NCBI RefSeq assembly: GCF_026340655.1
Contig: NZ_JAPEOZ010000001.1
Span: 3,162,001-3,226,000, forward strand
Length of the DNA: 64,000 nucleotides
From: Streptomyces sp. NBC_01275
GTDB taxonomy: Bacteria > Actinomycetota > Actinomycetes > Streptomycetales > Streptomycetaceae
Direction: 5' to 3'
The notes below the pieces were generated by a model, which was not told where the DNA came from, did no database searches, and saw nothing but the letters and a program-made list of their open reading frames with translations. A program made the position numbers and the translations under genes. This document shows, in pieces, positions 1 through 7,826 of the stretch (positions are counted from its first letter, which is position 1; every line of letters starts with the position of its first letter).

Positions 1-42
1 TGGTCTCCCGGAAAGCGGTTCCGGCCCCGTTTCCGGCCCCGT

Positions 43-969
43 TCACAACTGCCCCCAGAACTTGTCGTCGGTCAGCCGCTCGGCGAGGTCTCCCATGGCC
101 TGCCAGGTCTCGTTGTTGGCGATCCGGCGGTCGTGCACGTCCTCGTCGGTGATGAGGCGTTCCTGCCATTGCAGAACGGGTTCCAGGGGAATGGACGCCA
201 GTGCCCTGGTCTTGCCGATGCCCCGGCCGGCCGCGAGTTCCTCGAGTTCTTTGTCGCACTGGCGCATCCACGCGTACTGCGCGGGAGACACCTGGGACCA
301 CAGGGGCGACTCAAGATCGGGAACGGCGGCCCGGACGAACCTGATCGAGCCGGTCAGCGCGTCCGGCACATGGCCCATCGCTATGCCGGCCTGCACAATG
401 CCCTGCTTTCCGTACACGAGTTCGGCGGCGGCCATCACATGCTGGCGGGTCCAGCGGTGATAGACGAGCCAGCGTGTTTTGAGGCGTCCCAGCCCGCCGC
501 GCGGCGAGGTCGCGGCGAGGGCGAGGTCCATGGCATAGCTGCGGCCGGCGCTCAAGTCGATGATGATGAGGTCGAATTCACGCTTGAGTCGCAGAACGAG
601 GTCCACGCAGCGGTGCAGGTTCTCCTCGTCGGTGACGAATTCACCGCCGGTGCGGTCGCCGGGCAGCAGGACCAGCCGTCCGGAGCCGCCGGGCCTGGTG
701 CGCAGCACGGGGTGCTCGGTGCGCGCCCAGACGTCGACCCGCAGCGGTTCCCCGGTCTTGCCCTTCAGATACGAGTGCAGACCGCGCCCCTCGGCCTCGG
801 AGAGGACGTCGGGCAGGTCGAACACGGCGGCGGCGGTGGGCGATCCGAAGTCGAAGTCCAGGTAGCAGACGTCGTCCCCGTCCAGGGCTCGGTGGTAGGC
901 GAGGTTGGCGCTGGTGACCGAGCGGCCGGTGCCTCCCTTGTCGGAGGCGGCGAAGACGAGCACGGTCAC
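43..969 (-). CDS. SCO2523-family variant P-loop (ParA/MinD-like) protein
   Basis: A 308-residue protein starting at GTG 969, which overlaps the stop of the upstream gene by 4 nt (GTGA), so the two are translationally coupled. The N-terminus (VLVFAASDKGGTGRS) is a ParA/MinD deviant Walker A loop. The usual KGGxGKS lysine is Arg here, while the first signature Lys is kept. LIIIDLSAG at about residue 130 resembles the Walker B strand with its Asp. Such proteins normally act as membrane- or DNA-associated ATPase switches; with the Lys-to-Arg change, ATP hydrolysis may be weak or absent. It belongs to a conserved actinobacterial block (SCO2521-SCO2525 families) whose function I do not know. Family naming comes from memory of the S. 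coelicolor order and protein architecture. Confidence 0.85.
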   Translation of the reverse strand: MTVLVFAASDKGGTGRSVTSANLAYHRALDGDDVCYLDFDFGSPTAAAVFDLPDVLSEAEGRGLHSYLKGKTGEPLRVDVWARTEHPVLRTRPGGSGRLVLLPGDRTGGEFVTDEENLHRCVDLVLRLKREFDLIIIDLSAGRSYAMDLALAATSPRGGLGRLKTRWLVYHRWTRQHVMAAAELVYGKQGIVQAGIAMGHVPDALTGSIRFVRAAVPDLESPLWSQVSPAQYAWMRQCDKELEELAAGRGIGKTRALASIPLEPVLQWQERLITDEDVHDRRIANNETWQAMGDLAERLTDDKFWGQL

Positions 970-2831
970 ACCCCCCGGGACCCGGTGCCCCGGGCTCGGG
1001 CGAGGGCGTAGAGCCGGGAGAGGACGCCGAGGGCCAGCGAGTGGGCGGTGCCGGGCTGTTTGTCGACCAGTTCCCGGGCGCGGCGCAGGTCGGCCTCGAT
1101 GCCCTTGATCTCTTCTCCCTGGGGGCTCTTGGGGGTGGGGGCGGGCTGCAGCATCTGTTCCTTGCCGAAGAGGTGGGCGGCCTCGCTGAGGGCCGCCTGG
1201 GCCAGCGTCGACATGTCGTTGCTGCGGATCGGGTCCTGGGAGTAGAGGGCGTGCGCGGCGACCATGCACTCGGTGACGCGCTCGGTGATGCTCCAGGACA
1301 ACGGCCCCTGCCGGACCGGTGATTCGGGGTAGACGGCGTGCACGTTGTCCCACAGGCCGACGCCCTCGCCGTCGTTGACGCGGCGCTGCCAGAGGTGGTC
1401 GAGGATGTCCTCGGAGAGCCTGAGCAAACGGTCCTGCGAGCCGATGCTCCTCGACAGCGCGCCCAGTTGGATGGTCCGCTTGAGCAGCTGCGCGGAGAAG
1501 TCGCCCATCGTCCACTTCATGGCGGGGCCGATGTCCTCGCTGCCCAGGAGCGGCAGGGTGACCCCGGGGTTGTGCAGTCCGATCGCCGGGTCCTCACGGG
1601 TGGTGCCGCTGGTGATGCGGCCGCGTTCGGCGAGGCGTTCCATGACGGCGACGGTGCGGGTGAGGTCGTCGTCGGTGGCGCGGCGGCGGACCAGGTCGTG
1701 GACGAGGATGGAGGCGACGGAGAGCGAGAAGTACTCCGACTCCAGCTGCTGGAGCGTGGTGCGCCAGGGGATCTCCTCCAGCGGCCAGGTCGCGGCGTCG
1801 AAGCGGGCGATGGCGGACCAGTACTGCTGGGTGATCTCCCAGCGCAGCCGGAGCGCGTCGGCCAGCTTCTGCTGTTCGGCGTTGAGCAGGCCGAGGACGA
1901 GGGTGCGCTCGGACGACAGGTCGGGGATGCCGTCGAGGGCGACGACGGTGAAGTACAGGTAGGGCACGGCGCGGGCGACGCCCTGCGGCTGCTTGCCGAT
2001 GGCCTGGGCGGTCTGGGGCTCCAGCTCGATCTCGGGTGCGCCCTTCACCAGGCTCCAGGCCCAGCCGCACTCGAAGAGGCGGTTCTCGTTGCGCAGTTGG
2101 TCGGTCACGTCGGTGTCGAGGCCGAGGGTGACGCTTTCGCTGATCAGGGCGCGCAGGGACTTGAAGCGGTCCTGGAAGCGCTGCAGGACCTGCCGGTCGG
2201 AGAGCCGGCCCCGGCCCAGCAGCCGGGCGAGCGACTGTCCCTGGTCGGAGGAGATGTCGACGACGTTGACCGTGAAGGACCGCAGCAGGCTGACCATGGC
2301 GGCGGTGAGCCGGGCGCTGGTCTCCTCCCTGAGCCGGTCGATGCGGGCGAGGGTGCTGGCCCGCTGGGTCTTGCCCCGGTACACCTTGAGGAAGCCGAGG
2401 GTGGCCAGGCATAAGGTGATCGACATGGAGTAGGCGTCGACCACGCCCACTTCCCGCTGTTCCTTGGTCAGTTCCTGCTTGGGGTCCTCCGGGGCGAAGT
2501 AGTAGCCGCCGGCGAAGGTGGGACTCTCCTCGCCGCGGTGCTTCTCCATGAAGTCGCCGAGGATCTCCACGAGGTTCGCGGGAATCTCGCTGGAGTCGCC
2601 CGCATTGCGCAGGGCCCTTTCCACGTCCAGTTGGGTCGTGTCGGGGTCGTCGAGACGGAACGGCTCGATTTCGGTGGCGGGGTAGAGCAGACAGAGCAGG
2701 CGCTCGGCGTCGGCGACGCTGCTGCGGCCGCCCCACTCACCCCAGTCCCATTCTCCGTTGTCGAACGAATGGCGGGCGATGGCCTGCCACACTTCGAGCA
2801 GATTCTGTCGCGGCTTGATCTGCATGCCCAT
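966..2831 (-). CDS. SCO2524-family protein of unknown function
   Basis: A 621-residue soluble-looking, mostly alpha-helical protein, rich in Leu, Arg and Glu, with no signal peptide or clear catalytic motif. It lies between the methyltransferase (63 nt upstream) and the variant P-loop protein (4-nt overlap downstream), so all three should be one transcript. ATG 2831 is used. ATG 2825 is the alternative and has the better spacing to the GAGGTG ribosome site. Trp-rich N-terminal residues (GEWDWGEWGG at about residues 26-35) and an SSDQGQSLARLLGRGR stretch are visible. I recognise it only as the SCO2524 family by position and partner genes. A scaffold or effector partner for the ATPase-like protein is inference. 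Confidence 0.8.
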   Translation of the reverse strand: MGMQIKPRQNLLEVWQAIARHSFDNGEWDWGEWGGRSSVADAERLLCLLYPATEIEPFRLDDPDTTQLDVERALRNAGDSSEIPANLVEILGDFMEKHRGEESPTFAGGYYFAPEDPKQELTKEQREVGVVDAYSMSITLCLATLGFLKVYRGKTQRASTLARIDRLREETSARLTAAMVSLLRSFTVNVVDISSDQGQSLARLLGRGRLSDRQVLQRFQDRFKSLRALISESVTLGLDTDVTDQLRNENRLFECGWAWSLVKGAPEIELEPQTAQAIGKQPQGVARAVPYLYFTVVALDGIPDLSSERTLVLGLLNAEQQKLADALRLRWEITQQYWSAIARFDAATWPLEEIPWRTTLQQLESEYFSLSVASILVHDLVRRRATDDDLTRTVAVMERLAERGRITSGTTREDPAIGLHNPGVTLPLLGSEDIGPAMKWTMGDFSAQLLKRTIQLGALSRSIGSQDRLLRLSEDILDHLWQRRVNDGEGVGLWDNVHAVYPESPVRQGPLSWSITERVTECMVAAHALYSQDPIRSNDMSTLAQAALSEAAHLFGKEQMLQPAPTPKSPQGEEIKGIEADLRRARELVDKQPGTAHSLALGVLSRLYALARARGTGSRGV

Positions 2832-2893
2832 TCACCTCGCACAGGCCCGTCACCTTGGGAAACCGGAAAACCTTGGAAAAGAACGCTCCGACG

Positions 2894-3667
2894 TCATTTC
2901 TTCCGTCGACCGCGCGCCAGGATCATTCCCGTGTATCCGTCACGCACGAGGTCGCTGGTTTCCAGCCGGGTAATTTGCACGTCGTCCTCGACGAGACCGT
3001 CGAGAGCCCGCTCGACTTCTTCTTTGTCGATATCGCGGGCGGGGAATTCGATGTCGCCGACGCGATATCCCTGGGAATGCTCCATGAATGCCGTGGCGAA
3101 AGGCGCGCCCGGCTTCAGTGCGTTCATGAAGCAGTGCACGCCCTGGCGGAATTCCTTGAGGGAGGTGGTGATGGACTCGGCGACGAAGAACATGGTGCCA
3201 ATGTCCCAGCGGGGCTTTCCGGCGCACAGCTCGAACAGGCTGCCCTCGACGGGCTCCTGGACGACCTGCTTGAACCGCTCCCGGGGGTTGTCCAGGTCCC
3301 GGTATCCCCGGCGCTCGGTCAGGACCTTCCAGAAGGGGTCCCAGTGCGGCTCGTACCAGTCGCGCTGCCGGAGAAGGTACTCCCGGTTGTTCGCCGAGCG
3401 CTCCAGTTGGGTGATGCTGTCGCACCAGGGGAGCATCGTGAAGGCCGGATAGAGATTGGGACCTGCGCCTACGTCGATTCCAGCCGGAACGCGATCACCT
3501 CTCCCCTCGAAATGATCACTGAAATGATCGCGTACGAGGGTGATGATCTCCTCGTCCACGGCCTGCATGACGAGGTAGTTGTGGCCGATGTACTCGCGGG
3601 TGTCGAAGTCGTCCCACGGTGCGTCTGCATTCAAGATGTGATCGGCCATTGGCGGTCCCGAGGTCAT
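2894..3667 (-). CDS. SCO2525-family SAM-dependent methyltransferase (NNMT/PNMT/TEMT-like)
   Basis: A 257-residue class I methyltransferase. The SAM-binding motif I is GIDVGAGPNLYPAF, followed by a Trp-containing stretch (RQRDWYEPHWDPFW). That arrangement resembles the nicotinamide/phenylethanolamine/thioether N-methyltransferase family, in which the glycine-rich loop is followed by a substrate-binding WSP-type segment. The LKPGAPFATAFMEHSQGYRVG strand late in the protein also fits. A small-molecule acceptor is therefore more likely than DNA, but this is inference. It is the first gene of the three-gene operon. ATG 3667 lacks a ribosome site but has TACCCT five bases upstream, which suggests a leaderless transcript; ATG 3649 is the alternative. 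It is divergent from the GNAT gene. Confidence 0.82.
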   Translation of the reverse strand: MTSGPPMADHILNADAPWDDFDTREYIGHNYLVMQAVDEEIITLVRDHFSDHFEGRGDRVPAGIDVGAGPNLYPAFTMLPWCDSITQLERSANNREYLLRQRDWYEPHWDPFWKVLTERRGYRDLDNPRERFKQVVQEPVEGSLFELCAGKPRWDIGTMFFVAESITTSLKEFRQGVHCFMNALKPGAPFATAFMEHSQGYRVGDIEFPARDIDKEEVERALDGLVEDDVQITRLETSDLVRDGYTGMILARGRRKK

Positions 3668-6510: not shown

Positions 6511-7692
6511 TCAAGCGCCCCCGAGTTCCCCGACGGCCAGCCGCCGGAACTCGATCGTCTCGTACGGCCCCGCCGTCCCCGTCTCGTACAGCAGCCCGAC
6601 CGTGTCCGCGTCCACCTGGACCAGGTCGGAGTACGCGGCCGGGCTCGGCGACGGCGTCACCGCCGGGGTGAAGTCCGCCCCGCCGTCCGTGCTGCGCCAG
6701 ACGGTCATCGCACGGCGGGCGGCCGGGTCGGACGGGCCGGAGAAGAGCAACGGGCCTCCGGAGCCGTGGAGTTGGAGGACGCTGCCCTGGACGACAGGGA
6801 CCCGGGCGAGCGTCGGCTGCGGGGCGTAGGGGCGGGACAGGGTCGTGCCGCCGTCCTCCGAGAGGGCGTCGAGGCGGTTGCCGGGGGCGCTGCCGCCCTG
6901 GTCGCGGGCGGAGAAGTACAGCCGTCCGTCGGGGAGTTGGGCGACGGAGCTCTCGTTGACGTTGGCCGTGCCGTCGTGGTCGGCGTCGACGAAGCCCAGC
7001 CGCCAGCTGCGCCCGCCGTCGTCGCTGCAGAGGGCGTGACCGCCGTAGTACCGGTACTCGCGGCCGGTGTCGGGGGAGCCGACGGGCGGGGCGGCGGAGT
7101 GGTTCGCCGCGACCACGAGCCGGCCCGCGTACGGGCCCCGGGTGAGAGCGAGGGCGTGGCCGGGGCCGGTGGCGTACCAGCGCCACGACGGCAGCGCGAC
7201 GTCCGCCGTGATCTCCCTCGGCGAGGTGAAGCAGCGCCCGTCGTCCCGGCTGTGCTGGACGTACACCCGCCGGGCGGGGGCCTCCCCGCGCATGATCCGC
7301 GCCTCGGTCGCGTCGCCGTCGTTGGCGCAGCTCACCAGCACGACCGCGCCGGTGCGCGGGTCGATCACGGGCGCCGGGTTGCCCCGGGTGCCCCCGTCCC
7401 CGGCGGCCACGACGATCAGCGGACCCCAGGTGCAGCCGCCGTCGACGGAGCGGCGCACCACGATGTCGATGTCCCCGGTGTCGCCGGGCCCGTCCCGCCG
7501 CCCCTCGGCGAAGGCCAGCAGCGTTCCCTGCCGGGTGCCGACGACGGCCGGGATCCGGTAGGAGGCGTAGCCGCCTTCCCCCGACACGTACGGCGTCGAG
7601 GAGACGCAGGGGGTCGCGGCGGCGGCCGCCGGGAACGAGGCGAACGGGGTGAGGAACGCGGTGGCGAGGAGCGTACGGCGCAGGTGGGTCAT
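6511..7692 (-). CDS. Secreted exo-alpha-sialidase (BNR-repeat neuraminidase)
   Basis: A 393-residue precursor. The N-terminus (MTHLRRTLLATAFL, ending near Ala 26) is a signal peptide; ATG 7692 has a GGGAGAG ribosome site. The mature part has the sialidase YRIP motif (FRIP equivalent, about residue 45) contributing the first active-site Arg, followed by Asp boxes SVDGGCTW, SRDDGRCF, SDDGGRSW, SEDGGTTL and STDGGADF, the hallmark of the six-bladed sialidase propeller (GH33). It would release terminal sialic acids from external glycoconjugates. No nan catabolic genes are near, so the organism may scavenge sialic acid elsewhere or use the enzyme to expose underlying glycans. Monocistronic. Confidence 0.9.
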   Translation of the reverse strand: MTHLRRTLLATAFLTPFASFPAAAAATPCVSSTPYVSGEGGYASYRIPAVVGTRQGTLLAFAEGRRDGPGDTGDIDIVVRRSVDGGCTWGPLIVVAAGDGGTRGNPAPVIDPRTGAVVLVSCANDGDATEARIMRGEAPARRVYVQHSRDDGRCFTSPREITADVALPSWRWYATGPGHALALTRGPYAGRLVVAANHSAAPPVGSPDTGREYRYYGGHALCSDDGGRSWRLGFVDADHDGTANVNESSVAQLPDGRLYFSARDQGGSAPGNRLDALSEDGGTTLSRPYAPQPTLARVPVVQGSVLQLHGSGGPLLFSGPSDPAARRAMTVWRSTDGGADFTPAVTPSPSPAAYSDLVQVDADTVGLLYETGTAGPYETIEFRRLAVGELGGA

Positions 7693-7748
7693 CGCTCTCC
7701 CAGACGGGGACGGCCGGTGTCGGTCACATCGTTCCCCGGGGAACCGCC

Positions 7749-7798
7749 GGAAACGTGCGGAAGCGCCCGGAAGCGCCGGGAAGCGCCGGGAAGCGTCC
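7749..7798. repeat. 10-bp tandem repeat 3' of the TerB-like gene
   Basis: Four clean copies of a 10-mer (GGAAGCGCCC/G) at 7759-7798 preceded by a degenerate copy (GGAAACGTGC) from 7749. It lies in the 134-nt gap between the sialidase start and the TerB-like stop, about 28 nt beyond that stop codon. Confidence 0.8.
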
Positions 7799-7826
7799 AA
7801 AACGGCCTAGAGGCAGCCGGAAGCGG

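Follow-up and report, generated by a model that had tools for sequence, protein, structure and literature searches.

The 64,000-nucleotide stretch of DNA analysed here (the window; G000:C1:3162001-3226000, from the 10.4-Mb genome of Streptomyces sp. NBC_01275) carries at its left end the genes for SCO2525, SCO2524 and SCO2523, which continue beyond the window with SCO2522, SCO2521 and a gene for a DUF6879 protein. We find that (i) SCO2524, SCO2523, SCO2522 and SCO2521 form an invariant core to which the methyltransferase SCO2525 and the DUF6879 gene are accessory, (ii) the P-loop protein SCO2523 carries an Arg at the position of the canonical Walker A Lys in every record collected, and (iii) the core proteins share one history. 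Combining these data with codon counts and predicted structures, we suggest, with a probability of roughly 0.4, that the genes encode a complex of the developmental phase that is inherited as a unit, rests on a nucleotide switch with slow or no hydrolysis and perhaps processes a small molecule. A minority of Streptomyces species, together with related soil bacteria, carry the four-gene unit, which appears tuned for production late in development.

The near loci were gathered with the sequence patterns DFDFGS and DLSAGRSYA, and the best 80 of the 444 found were analysed; the remaining loci were reached through SCO2524 and comprise all 26 matches outside the genus and six within it. SCO2521-2524 stand in the same order in 80 of 80 near loci, two of the core matches being partial (owing to an assembly gap of 100 bases in L073 and, in L109, to the end of the contig), and because this order is repeated throughout, the arrangement is more than chance. 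SCO2525 and the DUF6879 gene are each matched in 79 of the 80, with L073 and L109 accounting for the exceptions. Outside the genus, the core is complete and ordered 2524-2523-2522-2521 in 25 of 26 loci; the remaining locus is a contig of 3.2 kb. The core genes are thus linked, and the unlinked positions that would have told against the original prediction, made from the sequence of the window, were not seen. Counting at the locus only, SCO2525 is present in 13 and absent from 11 of the 24 loci outside the genus with a decidable flank, and of 25 loci 20 have the DUF6879 gene and five lack it, with a contig-end fragment in the 26th. Its position also varies: it lies between 2523 and 2522 in L145, L159 and L160, and upstream on the opposite strand in L167. 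A replacement for DUF6879 was sought in five proteins flanking L144, L146, L155 and L168, with L150 left aside; three of the five had no Pfam match, and both remaining proteins come from L144, one being a CoA-transferase and the other a luciferase-like monooxygenase. L144 and L168, both of family f3, are close to Nocardia (SCO2522 of L168 is 95% identical to that of Nocardia acidivorans and SCO2524 of L144 80% to that of Nocardia aurea), and the 120 relatives listed for SCO2524 of L144 include one from Frankia and one from Solihabitans.

At the level of genomes, SCO2524 scores above cut-off in 37 of 394 genomes of the class that were searched, this one included, which represent seven of 137 genera and four families; in the genus the count is 29 of 150. 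The SCO2523 model gave matches in 4 of 198 in a sample of the phylum. SCO2524 homologues in two draft genomes (G520:C182 and G473:C361) each contain one in-frame stop, reflecting either decay or assembly error.

All 113 SCO2523 records (111 distinct sequences, from this genome, the 80 near loci and 32 loci retrieved by way of SCO2524; near locus L105 and fetched locus L171 are from the same genome) have a P-loop of the form KGG[TA]GR[ST], and Arg also occupies the canonical Lys position in 31 of 31 sequences of alignment A1. The Lys-to-Arg exchange is thus fixed, and no homologue with an intact KGGxGK, which would have argued against the degenerate ATPase originally proposed, was found. Given that collection relied on the two patterns named above and on SCO2524, sampling did not select for the Arg. 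The signature Lys of the deviant Walker A motif, in KGG, is Lys11 in all 113 records, and an alignment of 18 members shows no variation at Lys11, Arg16, Ser17, Asp38, Asp40 and Asp138. Following MinD numbering, we take these Ser and Asp residues to include the Mg-site Ser, the switch Asp and the Walker B Asp. Because Lys11, Ser17, Asp38, Asp40 and Asp138 are all invariant, the canonical Lys is the sole exchange among the residues compared. Elsewhere in this genome, nine of ten AAA_31 match rows show the Lys (one gene pair appears in two of the nine), and no motif was obtained from the tenth; one extra match to the pattern, in L177, is out of context.

Lys-to-Arg exchanges in P-loops usually impair hydrolysis more than binding. 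Since the Mg-binding Ser and the switch and Walker B Asp residues are invariant, nucleotide binding by SCO2523 with slow turnover would be as possible as no turnover at all, as in the nucleotide sensor without ATPase activity that was originally suggested. MinD and Mrp models match SCO2523 more weakly than the family model NF040564, and by profile its nearest relatives in PDB are iron-sulfur cluster carrier proteins of the Mrp/Cfd1 type (E 4e-5). Against the NCBIfam model for a KGGVGR-motif variant AAA ATPase (NF047398), SCO2523 scores 38.4 bits, below the cut-off of 90. A nearly invariant, family-specific motif, RWLV[FY]HRWTRQH, follows the Walker B strand at residues 166-178 of SCO2523 homologues.

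Pairwise amino-acid distances correlate at 0.94-0.96 between core proteins and at 0.76-0.83 between the core and SCO2525 or the DUF6879 protein when all loci are compared, values that are helped by the spread over families. In the near set alone, correlations are 0.82-0.92 for core pairs, 0.77-0.87 for SCO2525 with the core, 0.72-0.81 for the DUF6879 protein with the core and 0.14-0.28 for RecO with the core. The range of RecO distances is small, and the test was therefore repeated on near-set DNA, giving 0.87-0.94 for core pairs, 0.67 for recO-uppS, 0.32-0.39 for recO with the core and 0.40-0.50 for uppS with the core. Thus, the core proteins share one history and it differs from that of the adjacent recO. 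The cassette has also diverged further, with a mean nucleotide distance of 0.22-0.27 versus 0.11-0.12 for recO and uppS. Between L050 and L066, recO differs by 4% (0.042) and the genes for 2523 and 2524 by 25-28% (0.25 for 2523), as expected from these sequences if the cassette block had been exchanged; vertical descent is common too, because the closest recO pairs otherwise mostly carry close cassettes.

In each of 12 cassette-free genomes of the genus that were compared, a single contig carries both recO and leuA, separated by about 1 to 20 kb, and the 11 recO-leuA intervals that were fetched (two ending about 1.4 kb short of leuA) encode no cassette proteins. Together with the exchange data, this places the near-set cassette at one chromosomal site, where losses, gains and replacements involve the whole block. 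The plasmid and phage collections searched contained no match to SCO2524. The recO-leuA interval looks like a variable site, since genes for helix-turn-helix (HTH)-DUF5753 regulators occur there in the cassette-free loci L199 and L201 (by Pfam) and L200 (by resemblance only); in L199 the regulator gene adjoins a DUF397 gene. A gene for a secreted sialidase-like protein, identified by resemblance, recurs in the recO-leuA interval whether the cassette is there or not (window 6511-7800, L196, L201, L202 and L203).

Of the Leu codons that the six genes contain in the 80 near loci, 6.35 per mille are TTA, the codon read by the bldA tRNA, versus 1.83 per mille in the other genes of these loci; CTA runs in the opposite direction (2.62 versus 3.86 per mille). 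TTA occurs one or more times in 71 of 80 operons when all six genes are counted and in 66 of 80 when the five SCO genes are counted, whereas draws of neighbouring genes with equal Leu content gave 32.2 +/- 2.8 operons with TTA and a maximum of 41 in 2000 draws. For CTA, 28 operons were observed versus 44.6 in the control draws. The TTA codons are spread over 48 distinct alignment columns of the six genes, some of which may be split by alignment error; they are rare in SCO2523 (3/78) and occur once in SCO2524 and once in SCO2522 of this genome. From this enrichment, a matter of codon counts, we infer that selection may have favoured late, bldA-dependent production.

Among the partner proteins, SCO2524 was originally described as a helical protein without a recognised domain. 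Structure prediction gives a toroidal alpha/alpha fold for residues 1-534 followed by C-terminal helices, residues 535-621 being hardly covered by the fold comparison. As to domains, the local Pfam copy returned a single chance-level match to HisKA (E 0.58), but a newer Pfam entry, PF28103, is precomputed for SCO2524 relatives. The model of SCO2522 suggests a putative HUP (Rossmann) fold resembling class I aminoacyl-tRNA synthetases (aaRS), and the protein holds many invariant polar residues. Membership of class I aaRS or cyclodipeptide synthases (CDPS) would call for a HUP fold with an insertion after strand 3, for which SCO2522 is a candidate, and for HIGH and KMSKS or a catalytic Ser motif, which were not established in it. 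No usable match came from profile searches of PDB with the DUF6879 protein or with SCO2521, SCO2522 or SCO2524; YacP matched SCO2524 with an E of 0.02 over 66 positions. SCO2525 matches PF01234 (NNMT_PNMT_TEMT) with 50.5 bits at a cut-off of 25. The protein encoded after SCO2521 matches DUF6879 (PF21806) with 24.7 bits, narrowly over the gathering cut-off of 23.9; elsewhere the score is 28.0 bits in L159 and 21.3, under the cut-off, in L143. Hydropathy scans (threshold 1.6) show one clear (2.42) and one marginal (1.65) membrane helix in the DUF6879 protein, which is probably a membrane protein, and one marginal window (1.62) in SCO2524.

The coordinates are collected in Table 1. The original prediction described SCO2523-2524-2525 as three tightly spaced genes with a GTGA overlap, and the three minus-strand genes and the overlap are as described; the gap is one nucleotide shorter than the 63 given. 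The three genes are open, with high GC content at third codon positions (GC3) and no internal stops, and their products are NCBIfam equivalogs with 468 bits (cut-off 200) for SCO2523, 879 (300) for SCO2524 and 318 (240) for SCO2525. SCO2522 and SCO2521 had been predicted to lie to the left of the window and were found there, in the flank L002, which is identical to the window where compared; both are NCBIfam equivalogs as well (442 bits, cut-off 200, and 389 bits, cut-off 150, respectively). Leftwards, SCO2522 is followed one base on by SCO2521 and then by the DUF6879 gene. Convergent beside the latter is a class A beta-lactamase gene (NF033103, 318.6 bits; L002:8097-8942 = G000:C1:3158097-3158942), a homologue of which turns up, to one side of the cassette or the other, within the fetched flanks of 24 of the 80 near loci.

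Table 1. Features of the cassette in the window (positions in the window, all on the minus strand).
Feature	Position	Strand	Remarks
SCO2525-family S-adenosylmethionine (SAM)-dependent methyltransferase	2894..3667	-	257 residues; accessory; open, GC3 0.80
Intergenic gap SCO2525/SCO2524	2832..2893	-	62 nt
SCO2524-family protein	966..2831	-	621 residues; predicted toroid (model, residues 1-534) and helices at the C-terminus
TTA leucine codon, residue 140 of SCO2524	2412..2414	-	codon count and sequence reading
GTGA stop/start overlap SCO2524/SCO2523	966..969	-	4 nt
SCO2523-family variant P-loop protein, MinD/ParA/Mrp-like SIMIBI family	43..969	-	308 residues; NF040564, 468 bits
P-loop KGGTGRS in SCO2523 (Lys11, Arg16, Ser17)	919..939	-	from sequence; K11 = 937-939, R16 = 922-924
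SCO2522-family gene, 5' end	1..46	-	NF040566, 442 bits; runs left to G000:C1:3161048 (L002 11048-12046)
GTGA overlap SCO2522/SCO2523	43..46	-	from sequence

Gehring and colleagues reportedly observed in 2004 that SCO2525 influences colony growth and development. In published work, sco2521-sco2526 are listed in a cluster of genes altered solely when hupS or hupA/hupS are mutated, with SCO2525 described as needed for normal growth (PMC11472566), SCO2525 is named as an HrdB target with a morphogenetic role (PMC6344877), and a mutagenesis study of SCO2525 is cited in PMC3017869. The papers searched for SCO2521-2525, KGGVGR or variant P-loops, and DUF6879 contained nothing on the function of the system.

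Based on these data, we suggest that SCO2521-2524 would constitute a dedicated four-protein cassette, acting as a complex or a strictly coupled pathway, in differentiating filamentous actinobacteria. In this model, (i) SCO2523 would bind ATP via its otherwise intact SIMIBI site with slow or no hydrolysis and would act as a nucleotide-set scaffold or switch, (ii) SCO2524, with its predicted toroid, and SCO2522, with its predicted HUP fold, would form the working part and perhaps bind or process a small molecule, e.g. an aminoacyl derivative, (iii) SCO2525, where present, would methylate the substrate or the product, (iv) the DUF6879 protein would provide an output at the membrane, and (v) the TTA codons would hold back production until the bldA tRNA is available, i.e. 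until late growth and aerial development. For one of these genes a developmental phenotype has been published, and the operon is among the targets of HupS. Four previously unstudied proteins that travel together, an obligatory P-loop Arg and an operon rich in TTA codons turn a list of families without functional names into a system open to testing, in which bldA-controlled development is connected with a possible enzyme complex. If SCO2523 does bind ATP and does not hydrolyse it, it would represent a natural P-loop Lys-to-Arg switch that is fixed across four bacterial families.

Several observations weigh against this model. Foldseek returned no significant match for either model, the best E being 0.02 for SCO2524 and 0.16 for SCO2522, and confidence in the SCO2522 model is moderate (pLDDT, the predicted local distance difference test, 76; five models 60.6-76.3; residues 143-209 mostly <50). 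A comparison of the SCO2522 profile with CDPS and arginyl-tRNA synthetase (ArgRS) by hhalign gave nothing, but the positive control, CDPS versus ArgRS, scored nothing either, and we therefore set the result aside as uninformative. The TTA enrichment is limited to Streptomyces loci, was determined on genes called by a simple script with neighbours in the same loci, rather than the genome at large, as controls, and comes from 80 loci that are not independent, because related loci share TTA positions. The pairing of the P-loop protein with the methyltransferase that was originally proposed holds in the near set, in which the distances of SCO2525 and SCO2524 correlate at 0.87, about equal to the core-core values, and fails in the 11 loci outside the genus that lack SCO2525; since SCO2525 co-varies with SCO2524 in the near set as core pairs do, the definition of the core rests on the loci outside the genus. 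Finally, the patchy distribution and the exchange at a fixed locus would also fit a conflict system.

Such a conflict or immunity system would sense invasion or contact with non-kin, with the locked P-loop protein setting the threshold and the DUF6879 membrane protein serving as effector. It would be in line with the patchiness in the genus and the class, with the fast divergence of the cassette (0.22-0.27) versus recO and uppS (0.11-0.12), with the block exchange between L050 and L066, with the variation of the recO-leuA interval, from about 1 kb to 20 kb, across the 12 cassette-free genomes compared, and with the predicted-inactive MinD/ParA-like domains that PMC7159879 (Kaur et al. 2020) describes in conflict systems. 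However, PADLOC-DB 2.0.0 returned for the six proteins a 39-residue P-loop match to PDC-M28B and nothing else, and neither it nor the family searches recognised a known effector domain; SCO2524 gave no match in the plasmid and phage collections searched, the near-set position is conserved rather than scattered, the supposed effector gene is absent from five of 25 loci outside the genus, and a developmental phenotype has been published. We consider this account rather unlikely. Alternatively, the genes could specify a secondary-metabolite pathway in which SCO2522 would resemble a CDPS or an amino-acid ligase, SCO2524 would be a cyclase or epimerase and SCO2525 a tailoring methyltransferase. The predicted folds would suit this pathway; yet the conserved unit contains no transporter, oxidase or condensation gene, the core includes a MinD-like protein and SCO2521, and catalytic motifs of CDPS or aaRS are not established in SCO2522, all of which makes it an unlikely account. 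Both accounts nevertheless remain close competitors of the developmental-phase complex, since the patchiness and the fast evolution in blocks go well with a conflict system and the folds with a metabolite pathway.

A purely regulatory or positioning complex, in which SCO2523 would regulate growth or septation in the manner of MinD, through position or nucleotide state, with the other proteins as structural adaptors, is suggested by MinD and Mrp being the nearest other families of SCO2523 and by the effect of SCO2525 on colony growth and development that Gehring is said to have found in 2004. Given that SCO2525 belongs to an enzyme family and SCO2522 is rich in invariant polar residues, we regard it as quite improbable; in addition, the presence of the cassette in only 29 of 150 genomes of the genus places it outside the basic division machinery. 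The most parsimonious account would be the developmental-phase complex on a slow or locked switch, with two proteins that may handle a small molecule and with methylation and membrane output as options. In its most novel form, the core would be a new kind of signal-making machine, with a SCO2522 HUP enzyme resembling class I aaRS and CDPS and a SCO2524 toroid enzyme on an ATP-locked SCO2523 scaffold making an aminoacyl-derived developmental signal that could be methylated by SCO2525 and sensed or relayed by the DUF6879 protein, under bldA-gated translation; taken as a whole, this version is a long shot.

Compared with known systems, SCO2523 shares with the SIMIBI ATPases of the MinD/ParA/Mrp type Lys11, Ser17, Asp38, Asp40 and Asp138 (the Walker B position), and differs from them in having a fixed Arg instead of the canonical Walker A Lys and in its family-specific HRWTRQH past the Walker B strand. 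The VMAP ternary and peptide-processing conflict systems, as portrayed in PMC7159879, are likewise multi-gene systems, some of them actinobacterial, with a predicted-inactive MinD/ParA-like protein; unlike in these, family searches recognised no MoxR, vWA or STAND partner among the cassette proteins. Class I aaRS and CDPS (PMC2922099) are set apart from SCO2522 in that HIGH and KMSKS were not identified in it, the invariant SxExGHxY after its strand 1 being the only such element. Alpha/alpha toroid enzymes (AGE epimerases, GH76, GH105, terpene cyclases) are 5-11% identical to SCO2524 in the rows compared. Arg variants of the P-loop are already recognised by NCBIfam, as 'SCO2523 family variant P-loop protein' and 'KGGVGR-motif variant AAA ATPase', and all five proteins score far above the cut-offs of the SCO2521-SCO2525 families (NF040565, NF040566, NF040564, NF040567 and NF040568, respectively). 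These families carry names only; to them the present analysis adds the four-gene core, its accessory genes, the fixed Arg, the fold models and the TTA enrichment.

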